Assembly: GCF_022627575.1 (NCBI RefSeq)
Contig: NZ_JADEYQ010000006.1
Coordinates: 124,001 to 188,000, forward strand
DNA: 64,000 nucleotides
Source of the DNA: Sphingobacterium rhinopitheci
GTDB lineage: Bacteria > Bacteroidota > Bacteroidia > Sphingobacteriales > Sphingobacteriaceae
Reading direction: 5' to 3'
In this document: positions 291 to 7,456 of the stretch, one piece after another
How positions within the stretch are numbered: the first letter of the stretch is position 1
Layout of the letters: every line of letters starts with the position of its first letter
The notes under the pieces: model-generated
What the model was told of the DNA's origin: nothing
What the model saw: the letters and a program-made list of their open reading frames with translations, nothing else
Databases searched by the model: none
Made by a program: the position numbers and the translations under genes

Positions 291-1925
291 ATGAAATCTT
301 TTATAAACAAACCTGAAGATATAGTAAAAGAAGCGATTGACGGATTATTAATTAACGACAAATTAGCCAAACTTGATCGTTTCCCCGAAATCAAAGTTGT
401 ATTAAGAAATGATTGGGATAAATCTAAAGTCGCCTTAGTTTCTGGTGGAGGATCTGGACATGAGCCTGCACATGCCGGATTTGTTGGTGACGGTATGCTA
501 ACAGCTGCTGTATGTGGTGAAATATTCGCATCCCCCTCTGTAGATGCTGTTCTATCTGCTATAATGGCCGTGACTGGCGACGCCGGTTGCCTTCTAATTA
601 TAAAAAATTATACCGGTGACCGCTTAAACTTTGGCTTAGCAGCCGAACAAGCACGTGCTCTAGGCTACAAAGTAGAGACCGTAACTGTAGCGGATGACAT
701 TGCTTTGGGCGCTGATGTAAAACAGCGAGGAATAGCAGGAACAGTATTCGTCCACAAAATAGCTGGTTATTATGCTTCTATAGGTAAAAATTTAGAAGAA
801 GTCGCTACCATAGCACGTCAAGTAGCAGAAAACACAGCTTCGATAGGATTAGCGCATACAGAATGTCAAATGTTTACAGGACAAAAAGAAGCACGACTAA
901 AAGAAAATGAAGTAGAATTAGGATTAGGAATACATGGCGAGCCAGGTGCTGAAGTAATAGCGCAGCTCCCCATAAATGAACTAATATCTATAGCAGCTTC
1001 TAAAATCGAAAACCATTTTAACGATCCTAATGCTAAATATGCTGTTCTAATAAACAATTTAGGTACTGTAACACCTATCGAGATGAATGTAATAGCCAAC
1101 GCTTTCAGTAAAACTAAATTAGCAAAGCAAACAAGCTATATAGTTGGCCCTGCAGCATTGATGACAGCATTAAATATGAATGGTTTTTCGCTATCAGTGT
1201 TGAAATTGACAGAGCAACTAGAAACAGGATTATTAGCAACAGTAGAACCTGAGTCATGGATCTGCGCAAAAAAACTTAGTCATCCAGCAACAATAACTAC
1301 ACCGCAACTTAGCGCGTTATTACCGTATAAGGTCACTAAGAATGAAGCTGTAGCATACATCATCACTTGTATCGCTAATACTTTTATTACCATAGAACAA
1401 GATATTAACGAATTAGATGCTAAAGTAGGGGATGGAGATGCTGGAGCAACTTTTGCATCGGTTTCAAAATTCATTCTTAAGAATCTAGATAAATTACCAC
1501 TAGCAAACACAAAAGAAACATTAGAAAGTATCGGCCGTATCTTCTCGAGAGAAGCTGGTGGATCTAGCGGCGTATTAATGTCTATCCTTTTCTTGGGAGC
1601 TGCCAACAACTATGAACAACATCCAAAGCTCGGCAAAGCCTTGTTAGCTGGCCTAGAACGCATGAAAACCTATGGTGGCGCAAAAGTAGGCGATCGCACT
1701 ATGATCGACGCTCTAGAGCCCGCATTTAAAGCCCTAGCGGAAGACCAGACTATTATAGAAGCTGCAATTGCATCACGCCAAGGAACAGAGAGCACCAAAC
1801 AAGTAAGCAAAACACTTTACGGCAGATCTTCTTATATCCCTGAGGAGCTACTGTTAGGGATACAGGATCCTGGCGCTGAAGCCATGACACGTGTATTAGA
1901 GAATTTAGTAAAGAAGTTAAAATAA
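291..1925 (+). CDS. dhaK: Dihydroxyacetone kinase, fused DhaK-DhaL (ATP-dependent)
   Basis: This enzyme phosphorylates dihydroxyacetone (and often glyceraldehyde) with ATP to feed glycolysis at the triose level, in the cytoplasm. Residues 1 to about 335 are the DhaK substrate domain, with SGGGSGHEP at 51-59 and GIHGEPG at 213-219; His215 is the expected residue that binds the substrate covalently. Residues about 350-544 are the DhaL ATP domain, with DAKVGDGDAG near 376-385 holding the Mg-binding aspartates. At 544 aa it matches single-chain kinases of the fungal/Citrobacter type rather than the split PTS-dependent enzyme. It stands alone: 200 nt of spacer precede it and a hairpin plus the 3-kb repeat island follow. 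The family call is firm; the physiological substrate is inferred. Confidence 0.93.
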   Translation: MKSFINKPEDIVKEAIDGLLINDKLAKLDRFPEIKVVLRNDWDKSKVALVSGGGSGHEPAHAGFVGDGMLTAAVCGEIFASPSVDAVLSAIMAVTGDAGCLLIIKNYTGDRLNFGLAAEQARALGYKVETVTVADDIALGADVKQRGIAGTVFVHKIAGYYASIGKNLEEVATIARQVAENTASIGLAHTECQMFTGQKEARLKENEVELGLGIHGEPGAEVIAQLPINELISIAASKIENHFNDPNAKYAVLINNLGTVTPIEMNVIANAFSKTKLAKQTSYIVGPAALMTALNMNGFSLSVLKLTEQLETGLLATVEPESWICAKKLSHPATITTPQLSALLPYKVTKNEAVAYIITCIANTFITIEQDINELDAKVGDGDAGATFASVSKFILKNLDKLPLANTKETLESIGRIFSREAGGSSGVLMSILFLGAANNYEQHPKLGKALLAGLERMKTYGGAKVGDRTMIDALEPAFKALAEDQTIIEAAIASRQGTESTKQVSKTLYGRSSYIPEELLLGIQDPGAEAMTRVLENLVKKLK

Positions 1926-1937
1926 CAACAGCATAAC

Positions 1938-1982
1938 AAGGAGTTGAATATAAAGCTTAGCGCGTTAATATTTCAACTCCTT
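1938..1982 (+). terminator. Hairpin downstream of dhaK
   Basis: AAGGAGTTGAA (1938-1948) pairs with TTCAACTCCTT (1972-1982), and the stem extends inward with ATAT/ATAT. No long U tract follows, so it is a likely 3'-end structure but not a textbook terminator. Confidence 0.5.
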
Positions 1983-2196
1983 CAATCTATCCAGTAGTAA
2001 CTGCAATTTTTACAAAAAGTGAATCTCCCTCTATTCACCTTAAACAACGCGCAGAACAAAAAAAACAAAGCAAAAAAACAAAGTATCCGACCTCTGAACT
2101 ACTGGTCCGTTGATTTTTGAAGTTCTGTGGTAAAGATCCTTTAATTTTTTTATGGTTTACGGACAAAATATTTTCCAACATATGTTACATTTTGTA

Positions 2197-3535
2197 CTTG
2201 CGATTCGCTTGCTCGCAATGACGTTTTTTAGTTCGTCATTGCGAGGAAGAATGACATGGCAATTTGCTAGGTTAAAACAGATTGCTTCGTACCTCGCAAT
2301 GACGTTTTTTAGTTCGTCATTGTGAGGAAGAATGACGTGTCAATCTACTAGGTTAAAACAGATTGCTTCACATGCTCGTAATGACGTTTTTTAGTTCGTC
2401 ATTGCGAGGAAGAATGACATGGCAATCTACTAGGTTAAAACAGATTGCTCCACATTCTCGTAATGACGTTTTTTAGTTCGTCATTGCGAGGAAGAATGAC
2501 ACGGCAATCTACTAGGTTAAAACAGATTGCTTCACATGCTCGCAATGACGTTTTTTAGTTCGTCATTGCGAGGAAGAATGACGTGTCAATCTACTAGGTT
2601 AAAACAGATTGCTTCACATGCTCGTAATGACGTTTTTTAGTTCGTCATTGCGAGGAAGAATGACACGGCAATTTGCTAGGTTAAAACAGATTGCTCCACA
2701 TGCTCGTAATGACGTTTTTTAGTTCGTCATTGCGAGGAAGAATGACGTGCCAATCTACTAGGTTAAAACAGATTGCTTCACATGCTCGCATTGACGTTTT
2801 TTAGTTCGTCATTGTGAGGAGGAATGACGCGGCAATCTACTAGGTTAAAACAGATTGCTCCACATGCTCGTAATGACGTTTTTTAGTTCGTCATTGTGAG
2901 GAAGAATGACATGGCAATCTACTAGGTTAAAACAGATTGCTTCGTACCTCGCAATGACGTTTTTTAGTTCGTCATTGCGAGGAAGAATGACGTGTCAATC
3001 TACTAGGTTAAAACAGATTGCTTCACATGCTCGTAATGACGTTTTTTAGTTCGTCATTGTGAGGAAGAATGACATGGCAATCTGCTAGGTTAAAACAGAT
3101 TGCTTCACATGCTCGTAATGACGTTTTTTAGTTCGTCATTGTGAGGAGGAATGACGCGGCAATCTACTAGGTTAAAACAGATTGCACCACATCCTCGCAA
3201 TGCCGTTTTTTAGTTCGTCATTGCGAGGAAGAATGACACGGCAATCTACTAGGTTAAAACAGATTGCTTCGTACCTCGCAATGACGTTTTTTAGTTCGTC
3301 ATTGTGAGGAAGAATGATGTGTCAATCTACTAGGTTAAAACAGATTGCTTCACATGCTCGTAATGACGTTTTTTAGTTCGTCATTGCGAGGAAGAATGAC
3401 ATGGCAATTTGCTAGGTTAAAACAGATTGCTCCACATGCTCGCAATGACGTTTTTTAGTTCGTCATTGTGAGGAAGAATGACATGGCAATCTACTAGGTT
3501 AAAACAGATTGCTTCACATGCTCGCAATGACGTAT
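2197..3535. repeat. Tandem array of 16 palindromic ~82-bp units
   Basis: Units start at 2231, 2312, 2394, 2476, 2558, 2640, 2722, 2804, 2886, 2967, 3049, 3131, 3213, 3294, 3376 and 3458, a period of 82 bp with three units of 81 bp. A half-unit precedes the first (from about 2197), and the last ends near 3533. Each unit is an imperfect inverted repeat: CGTCATTGCGAG pairs with CTCGCAATGACG, and inside it CAATCT pairs with AGATTG around a nearly invariant AGGTTAAAA loop. The junction between units is TTTTTTAGTT. Substitutions cluster at a few positions (GCGAGG or GTGAGG; CTCGCAATG or CTCGTAATG; four bases after AATGAC). No ORF or transposase accompanies it. It looks like a REP/MITE-type palindrome amplified in tandem. 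Confidence 0.92.
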
Positions 3536-4811
3536 AAAAAAGGAATCAAAATGCGCTATTAGTATGAATATTGATCGGTGCAAACACATAATTTCAATAC
3601 CACGTAACCTATATCAACAAAAATACATTATACTAAAAATATTAGTATAAAAATCACCTAATCAAACCTGTTGAAAAACAGCAAAATATTTAACCACATA
3701 CAAACAAAAAAATAGACTACAAAGCCTAAGTGGCTTAAAACAACACAAAATACAGAAAATAATAAAAATTTACTTTTTAAAAATATAGATCTCTTAAATA
3801 CTGATGTTTAAAGACACTAACTACACCTTTAATTAAATATAAAAACAACCCAAAAACATGATTGTTAACCAAAAGTTAATTAAATACATGAGCTAAAAAT
3901 ATTAACCAAAAAGAAATAAGTGACTCTGTACACAAATTAAAGCCTATTAGCCCCCGCTAATTAACCAGCGTAAAAGCAAGGATAAAAGAATAGTAAAACA
4001 CATCTAAAATTCACGCCAAAACACGGAATATCAGCTTACCTCAAGGTAAAAAAAGCTACGACACAATTCCTATAACTACACAGCTCCCCTCCTCTACCGC
4101 ACACAACAAAAACCATAGCTTGCAACACTCAACTTTATAACTAAGCAAGGTAAATCAACTTTAACAGCATGTTCAACTACCAAGAACCACGTCTACAATT
4201 AAGGCTATAAACAAGAAACGATAACCCTAAAACCAAATAGAAAATAGACATAAAAATAAGCTCTTCTACTTTGTTATATTTAAACAAAATACAGGTCAAA
4301 AAAAAAGAAATTCGCAATACTTTATTGATACGTACTTGGGTATATTAGTCGACGTCAAAAGGAAATTCCTATGGGTAAAAAAAGCACCCTATAGCCATAT
4401 GAATTTATCAATAAGCAGTAAGCTAAAAACCTCACAAAATACCGGAAGACCTAGCGACAAACCTTTCAATAAATACAAATTAGTAAACAGCTACTTCAAT
4501 TAGAAATTGAGTAAACAACAGGACTATTTACAATAGCAAAACAGCGCAGCTATTCAGCGCTTATACGAACCACCTTGTACATTATAAAACGATTTTTTGA
4601 AAAGAAACACAAAGGAGCGCAGAGGTTATATCCCCCTTAACTCACACTAACATGTAATTAAAATAGATCAAAAAAATTAGGTTACACAAGATTTGCAGTC
4701 CTATAAATACAAATAAATAAGATCCGGAAGGGTATCGAAATAGCAGGTAATATCAACCAATATAAGTACAATAATTAGGTAACCTATTTCAATATACGAA
4801 AGCTTCCAAGC
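3536..4811. other. Gene-free A-rich spacer
   Basis: About 1.28 kb between the repeat array and the M16 peptidase terminator. No ORF of useful length, tRNA-like cloverleaf or strong hairpin was seen. On the plus strand A visibly outnumbers T and G is scarce through much of it. With the array it makes a 3-kb island without recognisable genes, probably decayed or inserted DNA. Confidence 0.6.
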
Positions 4812-4851
4812 AAAAAAAATGTGAAGCCCTTTTTAATCAGACTTCACATTT
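4812..4851 (-). terminator. Terminator of the gpsA-hemF-M16 operon
   Basis: On the minus strand AAATGTGAAG (4851-4842) pairs with CTTCACATTT (4826-4817) and is followed by a T tract (4816-4812). It lies 80-120 nt beyond the stop of the second M16 gene. Confidence 0.75.
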
Positions 4852-4932
4852 ATATAGTTTCTACCAGGCTAGAATTGTAGCCTTTACAGTGCAGCAGAAT
4901 ATCCTAGAATATCATAAATACAGCGAATAGGA

Positions 4933-6213
4933 TTAATTCAACTGCCCTACTACAACTTTCACCATCTTATCATAATCAAAGTATTTATGTGCGATCTCCT
5001 GCACCTTTAATGGATCCATTGCATTCATTACATCTGCATAATAATCATAATAGCTCAAATCCATACCTGAATAATAAACAGCTTTATATTTATCTGCATG
5101 TGAAAATATACTCTCTAAACTACCCAAAAGAACACCCTGCATATAATTACGCACTAATGCGATTTCATCCTCTTCAGCAAGCTCATTACCCAATAACTTA
5201 AACTCCTTTTCTATTTCATCCATGGTCGCCTGTGTCACATCTACCCCAACCTCCGAAGCAATAGTAAAAAAACCTGCGTGCTGTAAGCTTACCGCAGCAG
5301 AGCCAATACTATACGTATAACCTTTGTCTTCGCGAATATTACGCATCAAGCGAGAGCCAAAAAAACCTCCAAAAAGCGTATTTACAAATTGTAATGCCGG
5401 AAAATCAGGATGCTCACGATTAATAGAATGTCCTCCTATACGAATTGCAGACTGTAATGACTCTGCTTTAAAATCTGTTATAATCTGACTTTTCACTTCA
5501 CCTAGTACGAATAAATCTTTATCGCGATCGGAATATGTATTTTCCCATTGCTGGCCAAAGATAGAATCTACAATAGCCAACACATCCTTAGTAACATTAC
5601 CTGCTACAAATAATGTGCAATTGCTGGGTTGAATCTGCTTATTATATAACTTCAATAAACTTTCTCTGGTAATCGCGTCAAAAGCTTCTGGAGAAGGCAC
5701 CGCCCCATATCTATTATCACCGAATACATTTTGATAGAAAAGACGTCTAGCTATAAAATCATTCTTTTTTAAAGATATCTCCAATGACTGCTTATTATTA
5801 CGTACATAAGTATCCAACTCTTTCTGCGGAAATATAGAATGCTGAAGAATATCTGATACTATAGGTAATACTTGAGCTACATGCTTGTGCATGGTATACA
5901 AAGTCAACGAAGTATGATCAAAGCTGTATTCTGGCATCAAATAAGCACCCAAAAAATCAATTTCATCTGCTATTTGCCCACTAGTACGGCTAGAAGTACC
6001 TTCTTTGAACATAGCTGACAACGCTGTGTTCATCAATGTAAGCTCATGCGTATCAAAATGATTTTCAAAGACAAACTCAAATTTTATCAATTCCAATTCT
6101 GGAGATTGAAAGACAAAGGCTTTCAAGCCATTAGCATATTCAAAAGATTCAGGCTCATGGATGGCCAATTTATTAATAGGTTGAAACGCCGGTGCAATAG
6201 TTCTATTCAACAT
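4933..6213 (-). CDS. M16 family peptidase, non-catalytic subunit
   Basis: An insulinase/pitrilysin-fold protein of about 426 aa without the zinc-binding HxxEH motif. It carries the C-terminal-type signature with Arg and Tyr (RNIREDKGYTYSIG, roughly residues 300-315) that completes the active site of the partner. It should pair with the catalytic subunit encoded just upstream, forming a two-chain M16 protease. The start at 6213 (MLNRT) has GGAGG five bases before the ATG; an in-frame ATG at 6225 (MEDQ) is the alternative. Either start overlaps the end of the upstream gene, which suggests translational coupling. No signal peptide is visible. The heterodimer is inferred from family knowledge. 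Confidence 0.88.
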   Translation of the reverse strand: MLNRTIAPAFQPINKLAIHEPESFEYANGLKAFVFQSPELELIKFEFVFENHFDTHELTLMNTALSAMFKEGTSSRTSGQIADEIDFLGAYLMPEYSFDHTSLTLYTMHKHVAQVLPIVSDILQHSIFPQKELDTYVRNNKQSLEISLKKNDFIARRLFYQNVFGDNRYGAVPSPEAFDAITRESLLKLYNKQIQPSNCTLFVAGNVTKDVLAIVDSIFGQQWENTYSDRDKDLFVLGEVKSQIITDFKAESLQSAIRIGGHSINREHPDFPALQFVNTLFGGFFGSRLMRNIREDKGYTYSIGSAAVSLQHAGFFTIASEVGVDVTQATMDEIEKEFKLLGNELAEEDEIALVRNYMQGVLLGSLESIFSHADKYKAVYYSGMDLSYYDYYADVMNAMDPLKVQEIAHKYFDYDKMVKVVVGQLN

Positions 6214-7456
6214 TTGATCCTCCATTTGATTTATATAATAATGTTGATGAATTTTCTTTTACAAAAAGCATATTTGCTACTTCTTTTATTTGTTTAGCAT
6301 CGACTTCATCATATTTGGCTACTTCCTTATTATAATCTTCAGCCGAACTAAGGGCCTCGTAATACGCTAAATTCATGGCTTTATCTAAAATCGATAATTC
6401 AGAAAACAATAAAGTAGATTCAATTTTATTTTTAACTTTCTGTAGCTCTTCCTCTTCTACAAATTCAGCTTTAATACGTTCCAATTGTTCCCAAATAGCC
6501 GCTTCCGCCTTTTCCAATGATACGCCATTAGAAGGTTTGCCTTCTACGACAAATAGATTGGGATCAATACTTCCCATTAGATAAGCATTAATCTCGCTAA
6601 AAATAGGTTCATTTTTGACCAAAGCTCGATATAAACGAGAGGAAGAACCTCGAGATAAAATGTCTGATAACAAATCCATCGTTTGGTATTCTTTGGAAAG
6701 ACGATCAGGACCATGAAAAGCGATGTAAATACTATCTACAGGAACATCAGCCTCTGCTATCTCCCTTCTGGATTCGGTTTGCTTAGGCTCGACAGATAGA
6801 TTACGCACTATCTCTTCACCAGAAGCAATATCACCGAACCACTTTTCAGACAACCGTTTTACTTCTTCAAAATCAACATCACCCGCAACAACCATTACGG
6901 CGTTATTAGGGCTATAATATTTAGTAAAAAAACGCTTTACATCATCCATTTGAGCTTCCTCAATATGACTTATCTCTTTACCAATAGTAGCCCAACGATA
7001 CGGATGTTCCTTATAAGCGAGCGGGCGCAACTTCAACCACACGTCACCATAAGGCTGATTAAGGTAGCGCTGCTTAAACTCTTCGATAACCACTTGACGT
7101 TGAACATCTAAACTTTTCTCACTAAAAGCTAAGCTCAACATACGATCACTCTCCAACCAAAAAGCAGTTTCTAAATTATTAGCTGGCAATGTCAGATAAT
7201 AATTTGTGATATCATTACTTGTAAAGGCGTTATTCTCACCGCCTACCAATTGTAATGGTGCATCATAACTCGGGATATTTACCGAACCTCCAAACATCAA
7301 ATGCTCAAATAAGTGGGCGAAACCTGTCTGATCCGGAGACTCATCTCGAGCCCCCACTTTATACAATATATTGACAACAGCCATTGCTGTATTGTGATCT
7401 TCATGCACTAATACAGTCAATCCATTGTCTAATTTAAACCTTTTGAAATTTATCAT
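6203..7456 (-). CDS. M16 family zinc metallopeptidase, catalytic subunit
   Basis: 417 aa. HLFEH at residues 48-52 is the inverted zinc motif HxxEH, and Glu125/126 supplies the distal zinc-ligand region. The order (MINFKRFKLDNGLTV start, FGG after the zinc motif, AGDV in the middle) is typical of the mitochondrial processing peptidase/PqqL-like branch. It has no signal peptide, so it is probably cytoplasmic, degrading peptides or processing proteins. It overlaps the non-catalytic partner gene by 11 nt (counting from 6213) and lies 21 nt after hemF, so the four genes gpsA-hemF-M16-M16 are probably one transcript. Confidence 0.93.
   Translation of the reverse strand: MINFKRFKLDNGLTVLVHEDHNTAMAVVNILYKVGARDESPDQTGFAHLFEHLMFGGSVNIPSYDAPLQLVGGENNAFTSNDITNYYLTLPANNLETAFWLESDRMLSLAFSEKSLDVQRQVVIEEFKQRYLNQPYGDVWLKLRPLAYKEHPYRWATIGKEISHIEEAQMDDVKRFFTKYYSPNNAVMVVAGDVDFEEVKRLSEKWFGDIASGEEIVRNLSVEPKQTESRREIAEADVPVDSIYIAFHGPDRLSKEYQTMDLLSDILSRGSSSRLYRALVKNEPIFSEINAYLMGSIDPNLFVVEGKPSNGVSLEKAEAAIWEQLERIKAEFVEEEELQKVKNKIESTLLFSELSILDKAMNLAYYEALSSAEDYNKEVAKYDEVDAKQIKEVANMLFVKENSSTLLYKSNGGSNVE

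Follow-up and report, generated by a model that had tools for sequence, protein, structure and literature searches.

How a tandem run of REP-like palindromes comes to stand between two genes, with no transposase beside it, and which enzyme, if any, its units belong to, are the questions raised by a 64,000-nucleotide stretch of the draft genome of Sphingobacterium rhinopitheci (3.69 Mb in 63 contigs; the stretch, hereafter the window, is C57:124001-188000). Inspection of the sequence, TRF and folding place the array at positions 2234-3532 of the window, on the plus strand, as 16 head-to-head units, each a 72-nt or 71-nt dimer followed by the 10-nt spacer TTTTTTAGTT. A half unit made of the right arm only was found in the sequence at its left edge (2197-2223, plus strand), and the TRF call itself spans 2210-3533, with 16.2 copies, 91% matches and a score of 2200. 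A preliminary description of this DNA had counted sixteen tandem copies, as we do, and had taken their period to be exact. It is not, since twelve of the 15 unit-to-unit intervals measure 82 bp and three measure 81 bp, the latter following units 1 (2234-2314, with a right arm reading ...TTCGTACCTCGCAATGACG), 9 (2889-2969) and 13 (3216-3296), all on the plus strand.

Every unit follows the plan CGTC-ATTGC...GCAAT-CT, loop, AG-ATTGC...GCAAT-GACG, and then TTTTTTAGTT; CGTCATTG opens all 16 of them, and the right arms are its mirror. Unit 4, for example, has its left arm at 2479-2510 (plus strand; CGTC tag, stem ATTGC...GCAAT, tail CT), its inter-arm loop ACTAGGTTAAAAC at 2511-2523 and its inverted right arm at 2524-2550, the minus strand of which reads CGTCATTGCGAGCATGTGAAGCAATCT. 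The unit folds on itself through CGTCATTGCGAG/CTCGCAATGACG and CAATCT/AGATTG, the very arms given in the preliminary description, and the whole forms a 72-nt hairpin with an MFE of -27 to -31 kcal/mol; the loop, described there as nearly constant, is AGGTTAAAA without exception. The same description spoke of an 82-bp palindrome, which was right as to its REP-like nature but not as to its form: each half of the unit has its own hairpin, ATTGC...GCAAT, so that the unit is a head-to-head dimer and not one simple palindrome. Pairwise, units differ at 0-14 positions and form a mosaic of variants with the highest likeness at lags 4, 8 and 9, as expected under repeated local duplication and exchange, and the earlier suggestion of amplification in place agrees with these 16 mosaic units. 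GTGAG is found in 7 of 16 left arms and CTCGTAATGACG in 8 of 16 right arms; both result from C-to-T changes in the plus strand, with G-U wobble pairing preserved, and either a mutational bias or selection for pairing in RNA may lie behind them.

Around the array, 3 kb of non-coding DNA separates two convergent genes, a plus-strand gene on the left (291-1925, 544 aa) whose product we take, by sequence recognition, to be dihydroxyacetone-kinase-like, and a minus-strand gene on the right (4933-6225, 430 aa), presumably M16-peptidase-like on the same basis; the left gene serves as context only. The 1.4 kb from the array to the M16-like gene (3540-4930) is AT-rich and has no ORF of 60 aa. Inheritance of the array at a conserved locus was considered and rejected, since the fetched flanks of M16-like orthologues from 19 relatives showed no such palindrome, and only 1 of 59 relatives has a dhaK-like homologue at E<=1e-100. 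A CRISPR reading was likewise rejected, variable spacers being absent.

The palindrome is not confined to the window. Its exact 12-mer, GTCATTGCGAGG, has 37 sites in the host genome, and these fall into a few clusters, namely the window array, a pair of arrays of ~83-bp units on contig C19, and further ones on C34 (33-, 54- and 87-bp units), C59 and C11, while C62 carries a related degenerate dimer. The C59 array (G000:C59:154500-155100, or L042:4500-5100) consists of 2.9 copies of a 158-bp compound unit with two partial arms inside. With clusters at C34, C59, C11 and C62, the expectation in the preliminary description that such palindromes occur as scattered singles does not fit this genome. 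It had further stated that the array has no partner gene, which is true locally; on C19, however, a 100-aa GIY-YIG gene at 6532-6831 (PF01541, 59.7 bits), the only member of its subfamily in the host genome, is flanked by the two arrays of the window's palindrome. No RAYT gene was reported near the array, correctly, and the search for one that was advised, extended to the whole host genome, found no Y1 tyrosine transposase of the RAYT type (PF01797); the partner located in the genome is the GIY-YIG nuclease instead.

The association between this subfamily and the palindrome was measured on the best 80 of 501 GTDB loci, taken with their flanks, chosen by protein alone (alignment A1) and all from Bacteroidota. 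In these 80 loci, the density of GTCATTGCGAG, with at most 1 mismatch, fell from 7.1/kb in the first 250 bp around the gene to 2.2/kb at 250-500 bp and 0.11/kb beyond 3 kb, and the motif was present within 600 bp of the gene in 71 of 80, on both sides in 60. Intergenic position as the cause was rejected, because in non-coding DNA only the arms at the Bacteroidota loci still stood at 6.4 versus 0.68 per kb, a 9.4-fold enrichment. A generic arm test gave 15-fold enrichment against 1.2-1.5-fold for four of five control heads, and the fifth, TCG, reached 6.2-fold because it lies inside the same palindrome. The commonest adjacent arm pair near genes was +- (58 of 117), and in Bacteroidota the arm closest to the gene showed no consistent orientation with respect to it. 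Tandem arrays of such repeats lie near the gene in 16 of these best 80 loci, one in Segetibacter (L181) having 12.4 copies of 133 bp, which makes the array of the window one case of a recurrent outcome.

A search among relatives found arms at 20 of 23 subfamily loci and, by a strict rule, no arm at the other three (L219, L223 and L227). Loci scoring below ~80 bits against the subfamily HMM had zero arms or a single chance-like one, and an association with GIY-YIG genes in general was rejected, other small GIY-YIG families having no credible arms. A different small GIY-YIG gene is itself repeated in tandem at L115 (G034:C1:2857500-2862500, positions 1482-3755), L120 (G077) and G010:C3, with a period of ~360 bp and up to 6.3 copies (L115), directly 3' of a tRNA gene, each repeat including part of the 3' end of that tRNA. 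Repeat number also goes with the subfamily gene: among 100 relatives, at least 2 copies of the 12-mer were present in 15 of 22 genomes with the gene versus 11 of 78 without it (p=2e-6); for the genus alone, the counts were 8 of 12 versus 6 of 49 (p=3e-4). One closed genome of the same genus, G004, holds 578 exact copies of GTCATTGCGAGG in dimers and clusters (for example at L049, L064 and L074), but no gene of the GIY-YIG subfamily and no Y1 transposase were found in it. The repeats can thus survive, and perhaps multiply, where the gene is missing; those of G004 are either orphans or served by another enzyme.

Loci that lack GTCATTGCGAG have other palindromes of the same plan, GTCAT-NNN...nnn-ATC, where NNN is TGC, TCC, TTC, CGC, CTC, GGC, CAC, CCC, ACC, GCT, TCT and others, 17 triplets in all being found with their exact complement. 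Non-TGC heads were accompanied by their own complement in 92 of 261 cases, compared with a mean of 9.7 and a maximum of 21 in 5000 shuffles of the triplets, so the stems are compensatory. Furthermore, the stem tracks the subtype of the nuclease. Proteins with a KW motif never had an xGC stem (0 of 8; all 8 had xxC other than GC), whereas 58 of 60 remaining proteins were of the GC type (Fisher 6e-9), and a Mantel test of nuclease against stem gave 1 of 5000. Host phylogeny cannot account for all of this tracking, since paralogues of one genome can differ in stem: Pedobacter borealis has ATTCC at L178 and ATTGC at L180 and L195, and P. kyungheensis has ATTTC at L157 and ATTCC at L176.

To cover other phyla, homologues were taken from PLSDB records (PLSDB lists some chromosome-sized records of 2.2-4.9 Mb as plasmids, namely NZ_CP119140.1, NZ_CP069303.1 and NZ_AP026896.1). 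Matching palindromes flank the homologues of Planktothrix, Azospirillum, Shinella, Sphingobium, Aeromonas, Spirosoma, Rhizobium CIAT894 and Neorhizobium, and the homologue of Neisseria gonorrhoeae (L260) lies inside a NIME-like array with GTCATTCCCGCGCAGGCGGGAATC arms, which contain dRS3. Nuclease and palindrome are paired in cyanobacteria, rhizobia, sphingomonads, Aeromonas and Neisseria alike. No arm passed the strict rule in Sinorhizobium, R. tumorigenes, Novosphingobium and, close to the gene, Photobacterium; palindromes of the CTCATTCCTGTG...CACAGGAATCC or GTCGCCCCG type are visible at these loci.

Two orthologous sites show presence and absence of the element. In Azospirillum lipoferum 4B, the gene and two dimers lie within sufB-sufC and are missing there in A. 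ramasamyi, A. oryzae and B510. In Sphingobium, an arm-gene-arm arrangement occupies the fnrL-regulator intergenic region of TYG46, MM7A and TYG73 (the TYG73 copy being frameshifted), TYG64 (L277) and TYG74 (L276) have a lone palindrome, CGTCACCCCGGGTCAAGCCCGGGGTGACG, at this site, and TYG72 and TYG65 have no palindrome. The lone palindrome could be a footprint of excision or deletion, or the original target. At the gene-less Azospirillum and Sphingobium sites the flanks have diverged and clean insertion ends are missing; no duplication of the target was found there. An apparently clean insertion site in Rhizobium CIAT894 was rejected, as the flank is an IS and the alignment of relatives stops short. 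The sufB-sufC site is occupied in two genera, Azospirillum (L262, stem ATCCC) and Shinella (L264, stem ATCCT), and is thus a repeated insertion site.

The nuclease itself has the marks of a working enzyme. Conserved residues of the subfamily are Y8, Y19, G21, R29, H33 and E67, the catalytic ones being invariant or nearly so, and close pairs have a median dN/dS of 0.09. Its AlphaFold model has the GIY-YIG fold (pLDDT 93.5), with PDB matches to UPF0213, to Slx1, a branched-DNA nuclease, and to UvrC. Retention of the catalytic residues, the dN/dS of 0.09 and the match of the model to Slx1, UvrC and UPF0213 suggest a protein that is probably active, structure-aware and kept by purifying selection.

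Taken together, these results make it likely that the array arose by local tandem amplification of a single CGTC-tagged head-to-head REP dimer whose cognate enzyme is a stand-alone GIY-YIG nuclease of ~100 aa, in a partnership like that of REPs and RAYTs with an unrelated enzyme. The basis for this reading is computational and consists of the anatomy of the unit, the association, the compensatory stems, the tracking of stem by subtype, the specificity to one family, the catalytic residues with purifying selection, and presence and absence at orthologous sites. Mobilisation of the dimers by the nuclease would complete the picture. The enzyme would read the tag and the stem of the palindrome and cut hairpin arms, single-stranded or extruded, beside the CGTC tag; repair or rejoining could then copy or move either a gene-less dimer, in trans as for REPINs, or the gene with its arms. 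Growth in place into arrays would follow from repeated cutting with misaligned repair, or from replication slippage on long hairpins.

Much of the same data would also be explained if the gene were a guest and not a mobiliser. GIY-YIG enzymes are classic homing endonucleases, and a selfish nuclease gene could use REP palindromes as its insertion site, the arrays then arising by ordinary slippage or recombination. Enrichment of arms near the gene could equally come from a gene inserting into pre-existing REPs, the Sphingobium site with a lone palindrome in two strains and arms plus gene in three would suit such targeting, as would the 578 repeats of G004 without the gene, and IS elements are known to target REPs (PMC1525189). 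We nevertheless hold this account to be unlikely, because gene-less dimers with the same stem have the arrangement of the gene-bearing element minus its gene, because repeat number goes with presence of the gene even within a genus, and because orthologous sites in Azospirillum relatives and in Sphingobium TYG65 and TYG72 have no palindrome at all.

It is less probable still, and in our view quite improbable, that selection maintains the array, with tandem hairpins kept as a terminator or insulator, a protein-binding array or a source of sRNA. Its place between convergent genes, the wobble changes that preserve plus-strand RNA pairing in half of the units and the frequent transcription of REP clusters (PMC3733652) speak for such a role. 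Against it, a terminator scan gave no excess over shuffles, and an Rfam scan returned no credible family, only an unrelated sub-threshold sraA match at 47-122; the M16 locus is free of the palindrome in 19 relatives, and as many as 14 positions differ between units. Misassembly of the array or of its copy number is very improbable: the assembly is a draft of 63 contigs and the copy number is as assembled, but the units can be told apart, the contig is 211 kb long with unique flanks around the array, and comparable arrays exist at C19, C34 and in other genera such as Segetibacter. Finally, a RAYT/Y1 transposase acting in trans, as with GTAG REPs, is suggested by the REPIN-like head-to-head dimers and hairpin arms and is largely refuted, since Y1_Tnp is absent from the host genome and from G004 with its 578 copies, the tag is CGTC rather than GTAG, and no CGTC repeat flanking a RAYT was found in PMC3733652.

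Set against known systems, the palindrome of the window fits best within the superfamily of CGTC-tagged REPs, which "apparently lack a dedicated transposase" (Di Nocera et al. 2013, PMC3733652). The two share an unpaired CGTC tag, AT at the start of the stem, head-to-head dimers, an intergenic position, clusters in some genomes and no tyrosine transposase; all 16 window units have an unpaired tag of the kind that defines the superfamily (CGTC, or TGTC/CCTC) with a stem beginning at AT, and every one is a head-to-head dimer, the arrangement that prevails in the superfamily. Published CGTC families 1-4 have a stem of 8-9 bp, a loop of 4-5 nt and a CCA tail (PMC3733652), whereas the palindrome of the window has 5 exact bp, a loop of 11-16 nt, the tail CT(A/G) and an ordered 82-bp tandem array, which makes it a further type in the superfamily and not one of these families. 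It also differs in having a cognate GIY-YIG gene, on C19 of its own genome, none being reported in PMC3733652. In the literature searched, with subscription papers and preprints outside it, we found no earlier report of GIY-YIG genes linked with REPs.

Among named elements, dRS3 is a CGTC-1 REP (PMC3733652) reported in up to 700 copies in meningococcus (PMC9778887), and the gonococcal GIY-YIG homologue sits in just such an array. Its stem is ATTCCC (ATTCCC-N8-GGGAAT), unlike the ATTGC/GCAAT of the window, agreement with dRS3 being found at the Neisseria locus, and NIMEs are mosaics with varied RS fillers. REP/RAYT systems and REPINs resemble the present case in their tagged hairpin arms, head-to-head dimers, cognate arms around the partner gene and a stem type that tracks the enzyme subtype; they differ in using a HUH/Y1 transposase in place of a GIY-YIG nuclease and a GTAG/GGAG foot in place of CGTC. 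UPF0213, Slx1 and UvrC share the fold and the catalytic residues, yet the nuclease forms a separate subfamily, and its UPF0213-like neighbours have no flanking arms. Whether CGTC palindromes across bacteria, dRS3/NIME and the window array included, belong, as non-autonomous members, to a class of tiny GIY-YIG-driven mobile elements, unrelated to DDE, HUH, serine and tyrosine transposases and with its own stem for each nuclease lineage, we judge to be evenly balanced. A cognate 100-aa GIY-YIG nuclease that co-varies with the stem offers a testable answer to what moves CGTC REPs, dRS3 among them, and would bring into bacterial DNA transposition a nuclease fold not commonly linked to it. The array of the window thereby gains a likely origin, the amplification of a REP dimer in a host that carries the nuclease matching it.
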